Made by a program: the position numbers and the translations under genes | The notes under the pieces: model-generated | Database searches by the model: none | The model's input: the letters and a program-made list of their open reading frames with translations, nothing else | Told to the model about the DNA's origin: nothing | Assembly: GCA_002256245.1 (NCBI GenBank) | Contig: NKIU01000002.1 | Location: forward strand, 124,001 to 188,000 | Direction: 5' to 3' | DNA length: 64,000 bases | Source of the DNA: Pseudorhodobacter sp. PARRP1 | Lineage (GTDB): Bacteria > Pseudomonadota > Alphaproteobacteria > Rhodobacterales > Rhodobacteraceae | In this document: positions 12,425 through 22,304 of the stretch, in pieces | Layout of the letters: each line of letters opens with the position of its first letter | Position numbering within the stretch: position 1 is the first letter of the stretch

Positions 12425-13816
12425 CTAAGCGGCGGTGCGGCTGATGGTGACTTGATTGCGGCCCGAGGATTTGGCGTAAAGCAGGGCGCGGTCGGCGCGG
12501 CCGATCAGATCGGCCAAGGCATCTTTCACGCAGGGAAGGTTGGCATCCGCCGAGGTGGCAAGCCCGATCGAGACGGTGACGCGCAAGGTGCCCATGTCAC
12601 CGATGCGCACGGGGCTTTCTTCGATCGCGTGGCAAAGGCGCTCGGCAATGCCACGGGCATGGGCCAAGGATGTTTCGGGCAGGGCAATCAGAAACTCTTC
12701 CCCGCCGATGCGGGCCAGCAGATCGCCGTCGCGCAAGTTGCGGTTCAGCCGTGCTGCGACCTCGATCAACACCGCATCGCCCGCAGCATGGCCCCAACGG
12801 TCGTTCACCGATTTGAAACGATCCAGATCAACCACCATCACCGCATATTCCTGCCCGGTGCGGCGCGAGATGTCGGCAATCGCGGCCAGTTGCGCCATGC
12901 CGTAGCGGCGGTTGTGCAAGCCTGTCAGGCTGTCAATCACCGACAGGCGCAGGCTGTCTTGCACCGACGCGCGCAGCGCATCGGCGGCGCGTTTGCGCGC
13001 AAGCAGGCGCGACAGGCGCAGCGCAAGTTCTTCAGCCGGGATGCCGTGGGCGACCAGATCATGCGCGCCAAGATCAAAGGCAACCTCGGCCCCAATCGCG
13101 GCGCCATGGCTGGATTGCACACAAAACGCCGCGTGGCGGGAGTGTGTGCGCGAGCGCAGGTCGGACATCAGCCGCAAGCCAGACCCCGGGCCGTTGAAAT
13201 CGGATTCGATCACGAACACATCGGGTATGGCACCGGGGCCTGCGCCCTCGCTCATCGCTTCTTCTGCGGTCATTGCGACAACCCGTTCGGCCAGATGCGG
13301 GGCCATTTCGCGCCGCAGTTTCAGCGCGATTTCGCTGCGCTGGGTGATCAGCGCGATCATGCCGGGTTGGATGAAGGGCGCTGCCGCCTCGGCCAGACCG
13401 AGCATGGCGATGCCGTCGTGGTGCTGGGCGAAACCTGCCACCTCATCGCGGGCGCGCATGAAGCTGCGGATGCGGGCGAGCAGGGTTTGGTCATCAATCG
13501 GCTTTGGCAGGAAATCATCGGCACCCGCGCGGAAGGCGGCACAGCGCGCGGCAGGGTCCGCCAACGCCGAGCAGACAATGATCGGCACGTGCTGCAAGGT
13601 GGGGTCAGCGCGCAGCCGTTCAAGCAGACGCTGCCCCGGCATATCGGGCAGCGCAAGTTCCAGCAAAATAAGATCGGGGGCTTCGCTTTGCGCCAGTTTC
13701 AGGCAGGTGGCCCCATCTGCGGCCAGCACCGGAGTGTAGCCAGCAGCCGTCAGCCTGACCTTCATGACGATGCGATTCGTCGCAACATCGTCCACGATGA
13801 GAATCTTGCCGACCAT
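12425..13816 (-). CDS. pleD: PleD-like response regulator diguanylate cyclase
   Basis: 463 residues with two receiver-like domains (about 1-125 and 150-275) and a GGDEF domain (about 290-455). It converts two GTP to c-di-GMP. The active site is GGEEF at residues 371-375 and an inhibitory RxxD site (RDGD, 362-365) lies five residues upstream, so product feedback is expected. The first receiver keeps the acidic pair D9/D10 and K105, but the phosphoacceptor position holds Glu (E53 in DLILLELALP), not Asp. The second receiver is degenerate, as in Caulobacter PleD. With Glu at 53 ordinary phosphorylation is not expected; activity may be constitutive or set by dimerisation. Divergent from a DUF3572 gene. 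Confidence 0.93.
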   Translation of the reverse strand: MVGKILIVDDVATNRIVMKVRLTAAGYTPVLAADGATCLKLAQSEAPDLILLELALPDMPGQRLLERLRADPTLQHVPIIVCSALADPAARCAAFRAGADDFLPKPIDDQTLLARIRSFMRARDEVAGFAQHHDGIAMLGLAEAAAPFIQPGMIALITQRSEIALKLRREMAPHLAERVVAMTAEEAMSEGAGPGAIPDVFVIESDFNGPGSGLRLMSDLRSRTHSRHAAFCVQSSHGAAIGAEVAFDLGAHDLVAHGIPAEELALRLSRLLARKRAADALRASVQDSLRLSVIDSLTGLHNRRYGMAQLAAIADISRRTGQEYAVMVVDLDRFKSVNDRWGHAAGDAVLIEVAARLNRNLRDGDLLARIGGEEFLIALPETSLAHARGIAERLCHAIEESPVRIGDMGTLRVTVSIGLATSADANLPCVKDALADLIGRADRALLYAKSSGRNQVTISRTAA

Positions 13817-15118: not shown

Positions 15119-16678
15119 ATGAGCGATGATGCAAGCCGCAAGCGCAGCCGTGCCGGGGGCCGTGCGGGCAACAAAAGCCGTGCAGGCAGCGCGATTATTG
15201 ATCAGATGCCGTGGCGGATTCCGGTTAACAACGACCGCCCGATCGAGCCTTTGGACGCCGATGGCGTGCAGGCGGTGCACAAGGCCACGATGCGGATTCT
15301 AAAGGAAATCGGCATCGAATTTCTGAACCCTGACGCCGTGGCGCATCTGAAGCGGGCAGGCTGTGTGGTGAACGGCACCAACGTGAAGATGGACGAAGAT
15401 TTCGTCATGGAGATGCTGTCGCACGCGCCGGAAAGCTTCACCATCACCCCGCGCAACCCCGAGCGCGCGTTGATCATGGGCGGCAAGCATATGCTGTTTG
15501 TGAACGTCTCAAGCCCGCCGAACGCCTGGGATCTGGAGCGCGGCAAGCGCACCGGGGATTTCGCGACGTTCAAGGAATTCATGAAGCTGACGCAGTATTT
15601 CAACTGCATCCATATCGCGGGCGGCTATCCGGTGGAACCGGTGGATATCCACGCCTCGATAAGGCATCTGGATTGCTTGTATGAAAAGCTGACGCTGACC
15701 GACAAGGTGGTGCATGCCTATTCCTTGGGGGCCGAGCGGGTTGAGGATGTGATGGAGATGGTCCGCATCGCGGGCGGTCTGAGCCATGAGGAATTTGACG
15801 CCAAGCCGCGGATGTACACCAACATCAACTCGGTCTCGCCGTTGCAGCACGACTATCCGATGCTGGATGGCGCAATGCGGCTGGCAAAACGCGGCCAACC
15901 CGTGGTGATCACGCCGTTTACGCTGGCGGGGGCGATGGCGCCGGTGACGATGTCGGGTGCTGTGACGCTGTCGCTGGCCGAGGGGTTGGCGGCGGTGGCG
16001 CTGTTGCAGTTCATCAACCCCGGCTGCCCGGTGGCTTTGGGCACCTTCACCAGCAACGTCGATATGAAATCGGGCGCGCCGGCGTTTGGCACCCCGGAAT
16101 ACATGCGCGCGACACAAATGACTGGGCAGTTGGTGCGGCATTACAAGCTGCCGATGCGCTCGTCTGGCACCTGTGCGGCCAACGTGCCGGACGGTCAGGC
16201 GATGTGGGAGACCAGCAACAGCCTATGGGCGGCGGTGCAGTCGCGCACCAATATGGTCTATCACGCCGCGGGCTGGCTGGAGGGCGGGCTGATCGCCAGC
16301 CCTGAAAAGTTCATCATGGACTGCGAAGTGCTGCAGATGATCCAGCGCTATTTTGAGGATTCGGTGACGGCCACCACCCCGGATGATCTGGCGTTTGAGG
16401 CGATCAAGGGCGTGGGTCCGGGCGGGCATTACTTTGGCTGCCAGCACACCCAAGACCGCTATGCGACGGCATTCTATGCCCCGATCGTGTCAGATTGGCG
16501 CAACTATGAGGCCTGGCAGCAGGATGGCGCGATCTGGACGGTGGAGCGCGCGCACCGAATCTACAAGCAGATCATCGCGGAATTTGAAGCGCCCGAGATG
16601 AACGGCGATCATCAAGAGGCGTTGCGGCAGTTTGTCGCCAAGCGCAAGCAAGAGGGTGGCGCGCCGACAGATTTCTGA
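15119..16678 (+). CDS. Trimethylamine methyltransferase (MttB) family protein, non-pyrrolysine
   Basis: 519 residues, close to MttB length. MttB-type enzymes move a methyl group from methylamines to a corrinoid protein. True MttB has an in-frame UAG for pyrrolysine; this frame has none, so it belongs to the larger non-pyrrolysine branch, which includes glycine betaine methyltransferase (MtgB). The conserved core is visible as TLAGAMAPVTMSGAVTLSLA and LAGAMAP/GTCAANVPDGQA. The N-terminus is basic and low-complexity (RKRSRAGGRAGNKSRAGS). Start ATG 15119 with GGAGAC upstream. No corrinoid protein gene is adjacent. A hairpin and a palindrome shared with the sox operon lie in the leader, suggesting methylated-amine use. 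Substrate is inference. Confidence 0.92.
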   Translation: MSDDASRKRSRAGGRAGNKSRAGSAIIDQMPWRIPVNNDRPIEPLDADGVQAVHKATMRILKEIGIEFLNPDAVAHLKRAGCVVNGTNVKMDEDFVMEMLSHAPESFTITPRNPERALIMGGKHMLFVNVSSPPNAWDLERGKRTGDFATFKEFMKLTQYFNCIHIAGGYPVEPVDIHASIRHLDCLYEKLTLTDKVVHAYSLGAERVEDVMEMVRIAGGLSHEEFDAKPRMYTNINSVSPLQHDYPMLDGAMRLAKRGQPVVITPFTLAGAMAPVTMSGAVTLSLAEGLAAVALLQFINPGCPVALGTFTSNVDMKSGAPAFGTPEYMRATQMTGQLVRHYKLPMRSSGTCAANVPDGQAMWETSNSLWAAVQSRTNMVYHAAGWLEGGLIASPEKFIMDCEVLQMIQRYFEDSVTATTPDDLAFEAIKGVGPGGHYFGCQHTQDRYATAFYAPIVSDWRNYEAWQQDGAIWTVERAHRIYKQIIAEFEAPEMNGDHQEALRQFVAKRKQEGGAPTDF

Positions 16679-16816: not shown

Positions 16817-17419
16817 ATGGCGAGTTTCCCGATGCACGGCCTGATCAACCGCTCGATCCAGTGTTTTTTGCGCGACACCTACGGCAATGCCGGCTGGTCG
16901 GCGATTTCGGCTGCGGCGGGTCTTGGCTTTGACAATTTCGAACCGCTGTTGATCTATGACACCGCCCTGACCGAACGGGTCATCGCGGCGGCAGCGGGGT
17001 ATCTGCAGCGCCCGCGCGAAACCGTGCTGGAAGATCTGGGCACTTATCTGGTCTCACACCCCAATCTTGAAGGCTTGCGGCGGCTGTTGCGCTTTGGCGG
17101 CGTCAGTTTTCTGGATTTTCTGAATTCGATGGAAGATTTGCCAGAACATGGCCGCTTGGGCCTGCCCGATCTGGAAGTGCCCGAGTTCGCGCTGACGGAT
17201 CTGGGCGAGGGGCGGTTTTTGCTGCATGTGTCGCAACTGATCGACGGTGTGGGCCATGTAACCGTGGGGCTTTTGCGTGCGATGGCCGATGATTATGGCG
17301 CGCTGGTGGTGCTGGATCATGTGGGCGTCGAGGACGGGCGCGAGGTGGTTTCGGTGCATCTGCTGGACCATGCCTATGCAGAAGGGCGGCGATTTGAACT
17401 CGCCATGCCGGGGGGCTGA
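16817..17419 (+). CDS. H-NOX-like (HNOB) protein lacking the heme ligand
   Basis: 200 residues with the length and pattern of the heme NO/oxygen-binding domain: MHGLINRSIQ at the start (M6 matches the usual family start, so ATG 16832 is an alternative), W27, LGTYLV (74-79), FGGVSFLDFL (93-102), PDLEVPEF (117-124). When aligned to soluble guanylate cyclase beta (FLQNLDALH, proximal His), the equivalent stretch here is FLNSMEDLP, so P109 replaces the heme-ligating His; H111 lies two residues later. The YxSxR propionate-binding motif is also lost (VSQLI, 138-142). Heme binding in the normal way is therefore doubtful. Coupled to the diguanylate cyclase gene 3 bases downstream. Confidence 0.85.
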   Translation: MASFPMHGLINRSIQCFLRDTYGNAGWSAISAAAGLGFDNFEPLLIYDTALTERVIAAAAGYLQRPRETVLEDLGTYLVSHPNLEGLRRLLRFGGVSFLDFLNSMEDLPEHGRLGLPDLEVPEFALTDLGEGRFLLHVSQLIDGVGHVTVGLLRAMADDYGALVVLDHVGVEDGREVVSVHLLDHAYAEGRRFELAMPGG

Positions 17420-17422
17420 GCG

Positions 17423-18415
17423 GTGCCGGGGGCGACATTCACCAAAGCCGCACTGTCACGGATGATGCCGATGCATATCGGGCTGACGGCGGCGGGCAAG
17501 ATTACCTCGATGGGGCCGACGCTGGCCAAGCTGATTGAGGGGCCAAGCCCGATTGGCGCGGCGTTTCTGAAGGTGTTTGCGGTGCGCAGGCCTGCGGGCA
17601 TCACCTCGATGGAGGATTTGCGGGCACGGGCGGGTGTCAGGCTGCATGTCGATCTGCGCGGAAAAGGTGATACATTTCGCGGCCTTGCGGTGCCGACGGG
17701 GGACGGCGGGATGCTGTTGAACCTGTCGTTTGGCATTCGGCTGATTGATGCGGTGCGCCAACACGCGCTGACCGATGCCGATTTTGCCGCAACCGATATG
17801 GCGGTGGAAATGCTGTATCTGGTTGAGGTCAAGCAAGCGGTGATGACCGAGTTGCGGCGGCTGAACCTGCGTTTGCAGGGCGCGAAGGCCACGGCAGAGG
17901 AACAGGCGCTGACCGACACGCTGACAGGTTTGCGCAACCGGCGCGCGCTGGACGTGTCGCTGCCTGCGCTGATTGCGCAGGGTTTGCCGTTTGGGCTGAT
18001 GCATATTGATCTGGATTACTTCAAGCAGGTCAACGATACGCTGGGCCATGCGGCGGGTGATCTGGTGCTGCGGGAAGTGGCGAAGGCTTTGGTGATTGAA
18101 ACCAGAACCTCGGATATCGTGGCACGGGTGGGGGGCGACGAATTTGTCGTGCTGCTGCCAGGGCTTTCGGACCCCAAGCGTTTGACACAGATTGCGCGGC
18201 GCATCATCGAGCGGTTGACGCAACCGATTGATTTTGAAGGCACGCCTTGCCAAATTTCGGCCTCGATTGGGCTTACGATTTCGACGCTGTATGACCCGCC
18301 CGATGCAGAGCGGATGTTGGGCGACGCGGATGCGGCGCTTTATGCCTCCAAACGCGCGGGGCGGGGGCAGGCGCAATTCTATGCCGTCAGCGGCGATGAT
18401 CTGTTGTCAGCATGA
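17423..18415 (+). CDS. HNOBA-GGDEF diguanylate cyclase, partner of the H-NOX-like protein
   Basis: 330 residues from GTG 17423. Residues about 10-130 match the H-NOX-associated (HNOBA) domain seen in H-NOX-regulated kinases and cyclases. A helical linker (about 130-165, LYLVEVKQAVMTELRRLNLR) leads into a GGDEF domain with LTDTLTGLRNRR, an intact GGDEF (237-241) and an RxxD inhibitory site RTSD (228-231). It should make c-di-GMP and be product-inhibited. In Shewanella and Legionella, H-NOX controls a c-di-GMP enzyme encoded next to it; the same pairing holds here though the sensor lacks its heme ligand. It ends at a hairpin shared with the convergent cysA gene. Confidence 0.9.
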   Translation: MPGATFTKAALSRMMPMHIGLTAAGKITSMGPTLAKLIEGPSPIGAAFLKVFAVRRPAGITSMEDLRARAGVRLHVDLRGKGDTFRGLAVPTGDGGMLLNLSFGIRLIDAVRQHALTDADFAATDMAVEMLYLVEVKQAVMTELRRLNLRLQGAKATAEEQALTDTLTGLRNRRALDVSLPALIAQGLPFGLMHIDLDYFKQVNDTLGHAAGDLVLREVAKALVIETRTSDIVARVGGDEFVVLLPGLSDPKRLTQIARRIIERLTQPIDFEGTPCQISASIGLTISTLYDPPDAERMLGDADAALYASKRAGRGQAQFYAVSGDDLLSA

Positions 18416-18417
18416 AG

Positions 18418-18444
18418 GTTTCTGGCGGTCAGACCGCCAGAAAC
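18418..18444. terminator. Bidirectional terminator between cyclase and cysA genes
   Basis: GTTTCTGGCGGT (18418-18429) pairs perfectly with ACCGCCAGAAAC (18433-18444) with loop CAG; TCTTT follows on the plus strand and AACCTT... on the minus. The right arm includes the cysA stop. Confidence 0.8.
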
Positions 18445-19148
18445 TCTTTGACGAAAGCCGTGGCCGGGCGGGCGCGGATGTCTTGCGGGCGGCCGATTTG
18501 TTCGATCCGGCCCATCGACATCACCACCACCAGATCGGCAAGCTCCATGGCTTCGTCTTGATCGTGGGTGACGAAAATCGTGGTCAGGCCGGTGGTGTCG
18601 TGAATTTCGCGCAGACCGGCGCGCAGTTCCTTGCGCACGCGGGCGTCCAATGCGCCGAAGGGTTCGTCCAGCAGCAGCATGCGCGGCTCGATCGCCAATG
18701 CGCGGGCAAGGGCGACACGCTGGCGCTGGCCGCCCGAAAGCTGGCTGGGATAGCGCGCGCCGATGTCGGGAAGCTGGATCAATTCCAGCAATTTGGTAAC
18801 GCGGCGGGCGATCTCAGCCTTGGCGGGGCGCTGGGCGCGGGGGCGGGCGCGCAGGCCGTAGGCGATGTTTTCAAACACCGTCATGTGGCGGAACAAGGCG
18901 TAGGATTGAAACACAAAGCCCGCGCGGCGGTCTTGCACGGTCAGGTTGGTGGCGTCGGTTGCATCAAAAAGCACCCGGCCTGCGGTGGGGAATTCGAGGC
19001 CGCCCAGAATGCGCAGCAAGGTGGTTTTGCCAGAACCAGAGGGGCCGAGCAGGGCAACCAAAGCCCCCGAGGGGATCGAAAGCGAGACCGGATGCAGGGC
19101 TGCGGTCGCGCCGAACTCTTTGGAAATATGGTCAATTTCGATTTGCAT
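18429..19148 (-). CDS. cysA: Sulfate/thiosulfate ABC transporter ATPase CysA, short form
   Basis: ATP-hydrolysing subunit of the sulfate importer. 239 residues from ATG 19148 with AAAGG 8 bases upstream; an upstream in-frame start at 19202 would run into cysW. Walker [10 protein letters not shown], signature [15 protein letters not shown], Walker [12 protein letters not shown] and the His switch VTHDQDEA are all present. Typical CysA proteins have about 350 residues with a C-terminal TOBE-like regulatory domain; that domain is absent here. Last gene of the sulfate operon, 11 bases after cysW, ending in a bidirectional terminator. Confidence 0.94.
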
Positions 19149-19159
19149 AGGCTGGCCTT

Positions 19160-20050
19160 TCACGGGCGATGGGCGGCGGCAAGCTGATCGGCAAAGCGCC
19201 ATTCCAGCAAGGTTTTCAGGGTAAGGGTCAGCAGCGCCAGCAGGGCCAGAACGGCGGCGAGGCTGAAGGCTGCGACCGAGAGGTATTCGTTATACAGCAT
19301 CTCAATCGTGATCGGCATGGTGGCGGTCTGGCCGCGTATTTTGCCGGACACCACCGCGACCGCGCCGAATTCTCCCATGGCGCGGGCGTTGCACAAAAGC
19401 ACGCCATACAGCAGCGCCCAGCGGATGTTGGGCAGGGTGACGGTGAAGAAAATGCGCCAGCCCGATGCGCCAAGGGTGAGGGCGGCTTCTTCCTCGGCGC
19501 GGCCCTGTTCGATCATCACCGGGATCAACTCGCGCGCGACGAAGGGGAAGGTCACGAACATTGAGGCGAGGATGATGGACGGCAGCGCGAAGACGATGGG
19601 ATAGCCTTGCGCGACCATCCAGCCGCCGATGGCGGTATTGGCGCCGAAGGTCAGCACCAGGCAGAGGCCTGCGACGACAGGCGAGACGGAAAACGGCAGG
19701 TCGATCAGCGTGATCAGCAGGGCTTTGCCGCGAAAATCGTATTTGGTGATAAGCCATGCCGCGGCGATGCCGAACACGGCGTTCAGCGGCACGGCGACGG
19801 CGGCCACGATCAGGGTGAGTTTGATCGCCGAAGTAGCCTCGGGGTTGGCGAGGGATGTGACGGCCTCGATTGCGCCTTTCGACAGGGCTTCGGCGAAGAC
19901 GGCGACGAGGGGGGCGAAGAGCAGGAATGCCAGGAATAGCACGACAACCGCGATCAGCGCGTAGCGGAAACCGGGGGATTCGGTGGTGACGGGGCGGTGC
20001 GTTGGGGGGCGGTGCGCAGGGCGGCTGTGGGTGATCGGGGCGTCAGACAT
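19160..20050 (-). CDS. cysW: Sulfate ABC transporter permease CysW
   Basis: Inner-membrane permease of the sulfate/thiosulfate importer. 296 residues from ATG 20050, with CGGAGGA 6 bases upstream. Six hydrophobic segments and the EAA loop ([21 protein letters not shown]) are visible. The start lies 8 bases inside the cysT gene end. The N-terminus is longer than in enteric CysW and is His/Pro/Arg-rich ([15 protein letters not shown]). Confidence 0.95.
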
Positions 20051-20879
20051 AGCCAATCCTCCGGCGGCTGAAGACTTGGATGGCGTTGATCAGCAAGAGC
20101 ATTGCGAAGGAAATCAACAGCATGGCGATGCCGATGGCGGTGGCGCCGACGTAGTTGAACTCCTCTAGCTTGATGACGATCAGCAAGGGGGCGATTTCGG
20201 TTTTCAGGGGGATGTTGCCTGCGATGAAGATGACCGAGCCGTATTCGCCAACCGCGCGGGCGAGCGACAGCGCGAAACCTGTCATCGCGGCGGGGGCCAG
20301 CATCGGCAAGACCACGCGGCGCAATGTGTAGGCGCGGGTGGCGCCAAGGGTGGCGGAGGCCTCTTCGACTTCGCGCTCGATTTCCGCGACCACGGGTTGC
20401 ACGGTGCGGGTGACAAAGGGCAGGCCCACGAAAATCAGCGCGATCAGGATGCCCGATTGGGTGTAGGCGATCTTGAAGCCAAGGTCGCGGGCGATGGCAC
20501 CAAACGCGCCGTTCGGGGCGTAAAGGGCGGTTAGCGCGATGCCCGCGACGGCGGTGGGCAGCGCGAAGGGCAGGTCAACGGCGGCGTCCAAAAAGCGGCG
20601 ACCGGGGAAGCGGTAGCGCACCAAGACCCACGCGAGGGCCACGCCGAACACCAGGTTGATCAGCGCAGCGATGAGGGAGAGGCGGAACGACAGGTAAAGC
20701 GCGCCCCAGATGCGGGGGGTGTTCACCTCGGCCCACAGGCTTGGCAAACCAGCGGTGGCGCCCTTCAGAAGAAGGGCGCCGATGGGCAACAGGACGACAA
20801 GCGACAGCAGGGTGAGGGTGATCCCGGCACTGAGTGCCATGCCGGGAAGCGGGGAGCGGTTGATCAGGGGGCTGCGCAT
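20043..20879 (-). CDS. cysT: Sulfate ABC transporter permease CysT (CysU)
   Basis: Second membrane subunit of the sulfate importer. 278 residues from ATG 20879; longer in-frame starts up to 21038 lie inside the sbp gene and are rejected. It shows the family pattern FRLSLIAALINLVFGVALAW, LPFALPTAVAGIALTALYAP and the EAA loop EEASATLGATRAYTL. The start is 4 bases after the sbp stop and its stop overlaps cysW, giving a tight sbp-cysT-cysW-cysA unit. Confidence 0.95.
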   Translation of the reverse strand: MRSPLINRSPLPGMALSAGITLTLLSLVVLLPIGALLLKGATAGLPSLWAEVNTPRIWGALYLSFRLSLIAALINLVFGVALAWVLVRYRFPGRRFLDAAVDLPFALPTAVAGIALTALYAPNGAFGAIARDLGFKIAYTQSGILIALIFVGLPFVTRTVQPVVAEIEREVEEASATLGATRAYTLRRVVLPMLAPAAMTGFALSLARAVGEYGSVIFIAGNIPLKTEIAPLLIVIKLEEFNYVGATAIGIAMLLISFAMLLLINAIQVFSRRRIGYV

Positions 20880-20883
20880 CGGG

Positions 20884-22005
20884 TCACTTCGCGGTGTAGA
20901 TCTGGTCGAAGGTGCCGCCATCAGCGAAGTGGGTTTTCTGCGCCTCGGCCCAGCCGCCGAAGTGGGAGATGTCAACCAGTTCCAGTTTCGGGAAGCGGGC
21001 AACGTCTGCCGGATCGGCCTTTGAGGTATCCCAGCCACGGTAAAAGTCTTTGAAGATAATGGCTTGGGCTTCGGGGGTGTAGAGGAAGTTCAGATAAGCC
21101 TCGGCCAGTTTGCGTTGATCATCGTTGTGGATGTTGGCTTCGACAAGGGCGACGGGCGGCTCGGCGAGGATGGAAATTGAGGGGACGACGATATCGAATT
21201 GATCGTCGCCGAGTTCCTTTTCGGCAAGGTAGGCCTCATTCTCCCAAGCCAGCAGCACATCGCCGATACCGCGCTGGGCGAAGGTGGTGGTGGCATCGCG
21301 CGCGCCCTTGTCCAGCACCGGCACATGTTCCAGCAGGGTTTTGACATAGGCTTGCGGGTCTTGGCCGTTCTTTTCGGCCCAAGCCCAAGCGGCAAGGTAG
21401 TTCCAACGCGCGCCGCCAGAGGTTTTCGGGTTGGGCGTGATCACTTCGACGCCGTCTTTCACCAGATCGCCCCAATCCTTGATGCCCTTCGGGTTGCCCT
21501 CGCGCACCAGAAACACGATGGTCGAGGTGTAGGGCGAGGAGTTGTGCGGCAGTTTGGATTGCCAATCGGCGGGCAGTTTGCCTTCCTTGGCGATCTTGTC
21601 GATGTCGGCGGCAAGCGCGAGGGTGACGACTTGGGCATCAAGGCCCTCGATCACCGCGCGGGCTTGGGCACCAGAGCCGCCGTGGCTCGCCTCAATCGTG
21701 GGCGCGGGGTTGCCTGCGGCGGTGTAGCTTTCGATGAAAGCGGCGTTGAGGTCTTTGTAAAGCTCGCGCGTCGGGTCGTAGCTGACGTTCAGCAGGGTTT
21801 CGGCGCGCAAGTCTTGGGCGGCAAAAAAGCTGAGATACAGCGCCGACAGGGTGATCAGCGCGGCTTTGCCGAACCATTTTTCACGCACTGGGAAGCCGGT
21901 GAATTCGCGGTCTCCGGTGGTGATGGTGACGCGGCCATCGGGGTGGCGCTGGGTGACGGTGCCTTGGGCTGTGATGTTGCCGGCGATGGTGACGGTGGTC
22001 AGCAT
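20884..22005 (-). CDS. sbp: Sulfate-binding periplasmic protein with an N-terminal extension
   Basis: Periplasmic receptor of the sulfate importer. 373 residues from ATG 22005 (AGGAGA 6 bases upstream). The mature domain begins at about residue 69 ([19 protein letters not shown]) and keeps the sulfate-binding signature [14 protein letters not shown] and the [12 protein letters not shown] segment. The hydrophobic secretion segment ([17 protein letters not shown]) is preceded by about 45 residues ([15 protein letters not shown] ... [18 protein letters not shown]) that look like a small beta-rich unit, not a normal signal-peptide n-region. No internal start with a ribosome site was found. The extension may be a fused small gene or an annotation limit. 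Confidence 0.92.
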
Positions 22006-22079
22006 GGGTTTCTCCTGCGGGATGGCTTGGCGCTTGGCCGGAAAGGGAAGGGCGGGGATGAGGCCGAGGATTGGCGTTG

Positions 22080-22304
22080 TCATCGCGCAAAGGCGTCCAA
22101 GGGCTCGATGCGGGCTTCCCACAGGCGGGCGTCGCGGCCATCGAGCAATTCTTGCACCGCTGCTTGCGGATCGCGGGTGAAACGGACCAACGGGCTGCCC
22201 GAGACGCGGTGGGCGCGGCCGGTGCGGCGGTCGATCAACGAGACTTGGTAGGCGCAGGACATCGGCGCCGCGTTGCGGAAAGCTGATTGGGGTGCTGCGA
22301 ACAT
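22080..22304 (-). CDS. Small protein heading the sulfate transport operon
   Basis: 74 residues from ATG 22304 with AAGGAG 7 bases upstream. Not recognised. It contains [20 protein letters not shown] and a charged C-terminal helix ([20 protein letters not shown]), no signal peptide and no cysteine cluster. It is 74 bases upstream of sbp on the same strand and 277 bases from the divergent Lrp gene, so it is the likely first gene of the sulfate operon. Its good ribosome site and codon pattern support it as real. Confidence 0.65.

Follow-up and report, generated by a model that had tools for sequence, protein, structure and literature searches.

The locus described here lies in a stretch of 64,000 nucleotides from Pseudorhodobacter sp. 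PARRP1 (the window) and consists of two adjacent genes on the forward strand. The first, at 16817..17419 (+), encodes an H-NOX (HNOB) protein of 200 residues and of the type called Group 5. The Pfam HNOB profile (PF07700) matches it with 71.1 bits and an E-value of 1.4e-19, against a cut-off of 25.5, and the protein is thus a member of the family. Its reading frame begins only 5 residues ahead of the canonical start, the internal ATG at 16832 matching the usual 'MHGL' start of the relatives. It is the one HNOB protein in the genome (4.35 Mb).

The second gene, at 17423..18415 (+), has a GTG start 3 bases past the H-NOX stop codon and encodes a diguanylate cyclase of 330 residues, composed of an HNOBA/PAS-like N-terminal part, a long helix and a GGDEF domain. 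A sequence-only reading of this DNA had assigned HNOBA, GGDEF and I-site features to the partner. The latter two are clearly present: the GGDEF domain scores 145.4 bits in Pfam, and both the GGDEF motif (residues 237-241, 18131..18145 (+)) and the I-site RxxD (R228-D231, 18104..18115 (+)), the two features by which a diguanylate cyclase is recognized, are invariant in 63 aligned partners, i.e. that of the window and 62 from a prepared set of 72 partner references. The HNOBA assignment (PF07701) is less secure, with 19.6 bits in the window partner against the Pfam cut-off of 23.4, and with matches at E<=0.01 in 52 of the 63 partners (best 1.5e-9). The structural model of the partner has a mean pLDDT of 88.8 and a pTM of 0.57, with a helix at residues 125-168; it matches the beta subunit of soluble guanylate cyclase (sGC) with an E-value of 1.6e-11, but with a TM-score of 0.35 and an rmsd of 18.

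The pairing of the two genes is conserved. A cyclase gene follows the H-NOX gene on the same strand in 122 of 123 loci, a count in which the window is represented twice and which includes some duplicates, and the single miss ends after 139 bases. A fusion of H-NOX and cyclase would be evidence of direct contact, and long open frames at four loci (L167-L170) were inspected for this reason. The idea was rejected: at none of the four is the cyclase read in frame with the H-NOX, and the extra length lies upstream of the H-NOX start.

Just upstream of the pair, at 15119-16678 (+), lies a gene for an MttB-like methyltransferase (256 bits with TIGR02369, for which the cut-off is 525). An MttB-like gene is found upstream in 43 of the 74 related loci that have at least 1.5 kb of sequence on that side (80 loci were surveyed, 6 of them with too little room). 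At 12425-13816 (-), at a distance of 3 kb from the H-NOX/cyclase pair, a PleD-like response regulator/diguanylate cyclase (355 bits with NF007135, for which the cut-off is 474) is a further c-di-GMP enzyme. Downstream, at 18429-22122 (-), there is an ABC-transporter-like cluster made up, as judged by eye, of an ATPase, two membrane-protein-like ORFs and a binding-protein-like ORF. These ABC genes were set aside as conserved neighbours, a similar ATPase being found in 4 of the 69 related loci with room for it.

The AlphaFold model of the H-NOX protein, obtained with 76 sequences, has a mean pLDDT of 88.0 and a pTM of 0.83. Its best structural matches are the Nostoc H-NOX structures, with a TM-score of 0.80 to 3tf8_A, and the sGC beta chains match it at a similar level (TM ~0.8). 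The H-NOX fold is therefore retained. In the model, the helix that carries the heme ligand in canonical proteins spans residues 98-115.

It is within this helix that the most conspicuous change is located. The codon CCA at 17141..17143 (+) encodes Pro109, which in the phmmer alignment corresponds to the proximal histidine H105 of the Nostoc H-NOX Alr2278. The YxSxR motif is replaced by VSQLI (residues 138-142, 17228..17242 (+)), with V138, Q140 and I142 in the columns where all four canonical H-NOX proteins aligned have Y, S and R. Both substitutions had been noticed in the sequence-only reading, and both are confirmed by the alignment. The protein thus lacks the proximal histidine as well as the YxSxR motif of a heme-binding, NO/O2-sensing H-NOX. 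Site 78 is a leucine, while the four canonical proteins have a tryptophan there, which in Nostoc H-NOX lies at the edge of the distal pocket and forms a hydrogen bond to the heme (PMC7356049). Two histidines are of interest as possible substitute ligands, namely His111 (CAT, 17147..17149 (+)), proposed as a shifted ligand, and His7 (16835-16837 (+)), which is found at the place of Nostoc Tyr2. The only cysteine is Cys16. Taken by themselves, these residue losses do not prove that heme is absent.

A frame error at 17141-17143 would have been a trivial source of the proline, and it was looked for. The closest named relative found, the homologue of Cypionkella aquatica, is equal in length and 94% identical (183 of 195 residues) and has the same proline. 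The comparison of the two H-NOX genes gives a dN of 0.028 and a dS of 0.42, i.e. a dN/dS of ~0.07. Since the proline is shared and the ratio is low, a frame error can be excluded. The same ratio indicates that the gene is real and is maintained under purifying selection. This bears on the idea that the H-NOX protein, having lost its defining ligand, is a decaying relic without function, which is contradicted by the purifying selection and also by the presence of HNOB matches in 296 of 394 family genomes (a count that takes in canonical copies), by the constant pairing with the cyclase, and by the phenotype of the hnoX mutant of Paracoccus denitrificans (PMC5588039). We regard the chance of a relic as next to negligible.

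The residues at the heme site were surveyed in homologues from three sets of loci, of which the first comprised 20 loci from higher-scoring divergent HNOB matches, the second the best 80 of 584 by likeness to a window-led alignment, and the third 20 loci picked by hand, with Dinoroseobacter shibae among them (L149 was below threshold and is not counted). The sample is accordingly skewed toward relatives of the window. The 123 rows were reduced to 114 distinct Group-5-type sequences by replacing the window's own locus (L001) with the window row and by dropping nine repeats or near-repeats (L076, L109, L120, L127, L131, L141, L152, L153 and L154). With the Group-5 profile at E<=1e-10, 7 of 289 genomes were matched class-wide, four of them from the same family as the window; the matches outside the family are L156, L157 and L158, of which L156, the one whose residues were read, has the canonical histidine and YxSxR. 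One HNOB match in a family member (G271:C24:241161-241622) contains a TAA stop.

Proline is by far the commonest residue at site 109, being present in 92 of the 114 sequences; His is found in 7, Gln in 5, Arg in 4 and Ser in 2, and Asn, Asp, Lys and Glu occur once each. The combination of Y138, S140 and R142 is found in none of them, compared to all four canonical H-NOX proteins, and the tyrosine position of the motif, Val138 in the window, is a cysteine in 72. Leu occupies site 78 in 112 sequences. Other parts of the protein are strictly kept, with Gly75, Gly95 and Gly151 present in all 114 sequences and Pro122 in 113. A cysteine at site 16 is found in 67. Among named records (four of six plasmid matches), Pro109 is present in P. 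denitrificans HAMBI_2443, P. versutus UW1 and Phaeobacter sp. G2, while Pseudorhodobacter turbinis has Arg109.

On a tree with an outgroup, the distribution of His and not-His at site 109 requires 7 changes; this tree has long branches, which are flagged, and 52 of its 115 inner branches are unresolved. The number of changes gives no direction, and gain and loss of His109 are therefore not separable by it. Trp or His at site 140 is present in six of the seven His109 sequences (L034, L041, L116, L119, L132 and L135) versus 9 of the 107 others (Fisher p 1.2e-5), a grouping that was chosen post hoc, and the best p for co-variation of a single residue with His109 is 0.0014 among 1524 tests. Co-variation with His109 is not claimed, as the phylogenetically independent pairs are too few (one on starred branches).

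The survey also decides the fate of His111, which the sequence-only reading had put forward as a shifted proximal ligand and for which, as for Pro109, it had recommended a look at homologues. Site 111 is Arg in 102 of the 114 sequences, His in 8 and Trp in 4. The residue is only two positions away from the normal ligand and is conserved in the nearest clade of the window, but this clade of 8 rows (support 97) is defined by a single change to histidine on the tree, and the YxSxR motif is lost as well. Moreover, judging from helix geometry, a shift by two places along helix 98-115 of the model should turn the side chain to roughly the opposite side. Judged from these sequences, His111 is a local variant and not a group-wide replacement ligand, and the proposal that it binds the heme has become very improbable.

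It is important to note that H-NOX proteins of this kind are already in print. In their review, Lee-Lopez and Yukl describe a very large 'Group 5', in which the proximal histidine is found in <10% of the members and is mostly replaced by proline, and which is said to have no conserved cysteine; the review asks how such proteins sense anything (PMC8738867). The group is founded on the HnoX protein of P. denitrificans (Pden_3719) with its neighbour DgcA (Pden_3720), and GGDEF and MTTB are among the neighbour families in a figure legend (PMC8738867). The proportion of His109 found here, 7 of 114, agrees with the published value (PMC8738867). By the features given there, i.e. Pro109, an adjacent GGDEF gene and no conserved cysteine, the window protein belongs to Group 5 (PMC8738867), an assignment that is based on residues and the neighbour gene; in the published similarity network, edges are drawn below 1e-47. 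A gene of the trimethylamine methyltransferase family (MTTB) is also nearby in the window, as in the published neighbourhoods (PMC8738867). The absence of the axial histidine from the H-NOX proteins of P. denitrificans and Rhodobacter sphaeroides, and the position of the P. denitrificans gene next to a cyclase gene, were reported by Kumar and Spiro in 2017 (PMC5588039). The window pair shares with Pden_3719/Pden_3720 the proline at the ligand site and the adjacent GGDEF gene. The copy of P. denitrificans HAMBI_2443 has Pro109 and Arg111 and is without YxSxR. The P. denitrificans protein is 38% identical to the window protein (tblastn, E 5e-25) and differs from it at site 111, which is His in the window. 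The observation on the window is thus correct, but a Pro-for-His H-NOX next to a cyclase is of a kind already described (PMC8738867, PMC5588039), and the locus adds one more member.

Functional information on such relatives comes from two species. In P. denitrificans, the hnoX mutant underproduces biofilm and loss of dgc leads to overproduction, from which the authors suggest that DgcA is inhibited by H-NOX, with an NO-dependent step assumed (PMC5588039). A later group, when testing that model, reports that c-di-GMP was undetectable in P. denitrificans (PMC12582929). The H-NOX of D. shibae is reported to inhibit Dgc1 in the NO-bound state, with Bedrunka 2018 cited as the source (PMC7232146, PMC8846402). 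We find a single HNOB match in the D. shibae genome (L132, on the DFL 12 chromosome), the genome having been assigned to this species through another of its contigs, in which the 6000 bases tested are identical to plasmid NC_009956.1. On the tree this match clusters within Group 5, and a GGDEF gene comes after it, as in the window, but it differs in having kept His109, unlike most of the group. D. shibae H-NOX is, in the literature searched, the one Group-5-type member with reported biochemistry, and since it keeps the histidine, the members with proline should not be assumed to share its NO response. We found no remark on the histidine of this NO-responsive protein in the literature searched; the primary paper may well discuss it.

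The D. shibae result lends support to a scenario in which the window protein still binds heme, either through another residue or without any protein ligand, and senses NO in the same manner. His7 would be the best candidate for such a ligand, and a better one than His111. It is present in 103 of the 114 homologues, whereas the four canonical proteins have tyrosine at this site, and the H103G variant of S. oneidensis H-NOX, with a solved Fe(II)CO structure (PDB title 2kil), holds heme despite lacking this histidine. However, His7 is also present in six of the seven His109 sequences and does not therefore look like a replacement ligand. The propionate motif and the pocket tryptophan are lost as well. 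NirK and NirS were not found in the genome, and its two COX1-family proteins are ccoN and ctaD, so that an NO reductase of this family is absent. A search for NnrS gave no match there, but none in any of the control genomes either, and is not counted as evidence. Within the family, HNOB matches are found in 94 of 110 genomes with nirK or nirS versus 202 of 284 without (p 0.003, kinship uncorrected and H-NOX types pooled). This speaks mildly for a connection with NO, although the genome of the window belongs to those without. On balance, we consider heme retention in the window protein to be unlikely.

Another scenario is that the emptied cavity, still hydrophobic, binds a different small molecule, which would then be the signal to the cyclase. 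The columns of the cavity, at sites 10, 14, 74, 78, 87, 101, 105, 148 and 152 (positions taken in part from the Nostoc structures), are mostly still apolar, while the polar residues that hold the heme are lost. In addition, E42, D73, R88, R89 and the ADDYG stretch (sites 157-161) are near-invariant in the 114 sequences and specific to the group, which suggests a specialised function, and the Nostoc and human beta H-NOX domains accept drugs that mimic heme (PDB titles 4iae and 5mnw). The near-invariant charged residues may, however, serve the interface with the partner instead, and the genomic context suggests no ligand. We think this option rather unlikely, if slightly less so than heme retention.

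The explanation that we prefer, and to which we give about even credence, is that the window H-NOX is a Group-5 subunit, most likely without the usual heme, that controls the adjacent cyclase by direct contact in trans. The contact would resemble that of the beta H-NOX domain of sGC, which acts upon the PAS-coiled-coil part of that enzyme. With a proline at the ligand site there would be no His-iron bond, and helix F would then be expected to rest in the 'released' position that is normally brought about by NO. This expectation is by analogy to the H105C variant of sGC beta, which is heme-free and activated-like in both structure and activity (PMC8196705). With the helix in this position, the simplest prediction is that the H-NOX would inhibit the cyclase constitutively, or in some otherwise tuned manner. 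A cyclase held down by contact with a heme-free H-NOX would also fit the P. denitrificans phenotypes, with no need for NO.

In favour of a heme-free subunit we count Pro109, the loss of YxSxR, Leu at site 78, the retained fold, the cyclase downstream in 122 of 123 loci and the dN/dS of ~0.07. Several points weigh against it, among them the NO-dependent step assumed for P. denitrificans (PMC5588039) and the mild association of HNOB matches with nirK or nirS. The alpha H-NOX of sGC is heme-free for a structural reason, its pocket being filled by an N-terminal extension, and not through missing residues (PMC8196705), and the His-keeping relative in D. shibae is reported to respond to NO, so that NO sensing exists within the group (PMC7232146, PMC8846402). 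The suggestion of the sequence-only reading that the pair may sense something other than NO through heme is upheld as far as the missing canonical site is concerned; it fits the data and is already in print (PMC8738867), while the heme-free state itself is to be taken as a proposal.

A comparison with other known systems is useful here. The 'pseudo-H-NOX' of sGC alpha also has the H-NOX fold without heme, the human alpha protein being without the ligand histidine and the moth alpha protein without YxSxR (PMC8196705). It differs in being fused into a guanylate cyclase chain and in having its pocket blocked by the N-terminal extension (PMC8196705), whereas the window protein is free-standing and has no such extension. 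In Legionella pneumophila (Hnox1/Lpg1057) and Shewanella woodyi (SwH-NOX/SwDGC), an H-NOX regulates a neighbouring c-di-GMP enzyme, as proposed here, but these proteins are listed as heme-based NO sensors, and the S. woodyi partner degrades c-di-GMP as well (PMC8738867, PMC8846402). The H-NOX of Vibrio cholerae is capable of heme-free signalling in vitro, but by cysteine oxidation at a zinc site (PMC7108781), and the window protein has Cys16 only.

For Group 5 as a whole, we tentatively suggest, with rather more doubt than for the heme-free subunit in the window, that the proline-type H-NOX proteins, which are the majority form in the family, are not gas sensors but a reinvented H-NOX, that their emptied cavity either binds another metabolite or is a fixed scaffold, in both cases giving c-di-GMP synthesis a new input, and that the few proteins keeping the histidine, D. 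shibae H-NOX among them, either still sense NO or have regained this ability. In annotations and in the literature, H-NOX proteins are usually treated as heme-based NO sensors, and yet most of the members surveyed here are without the ligand. The members with His and those with Pro constitute a directly testable pair for the role of the ligand site. If the proline-bearing members are indeed heme-free, annotations and models that give them NO sensing would be wrong, and many Rhodobacteraceae would have a c-di-GMP input of this kind.
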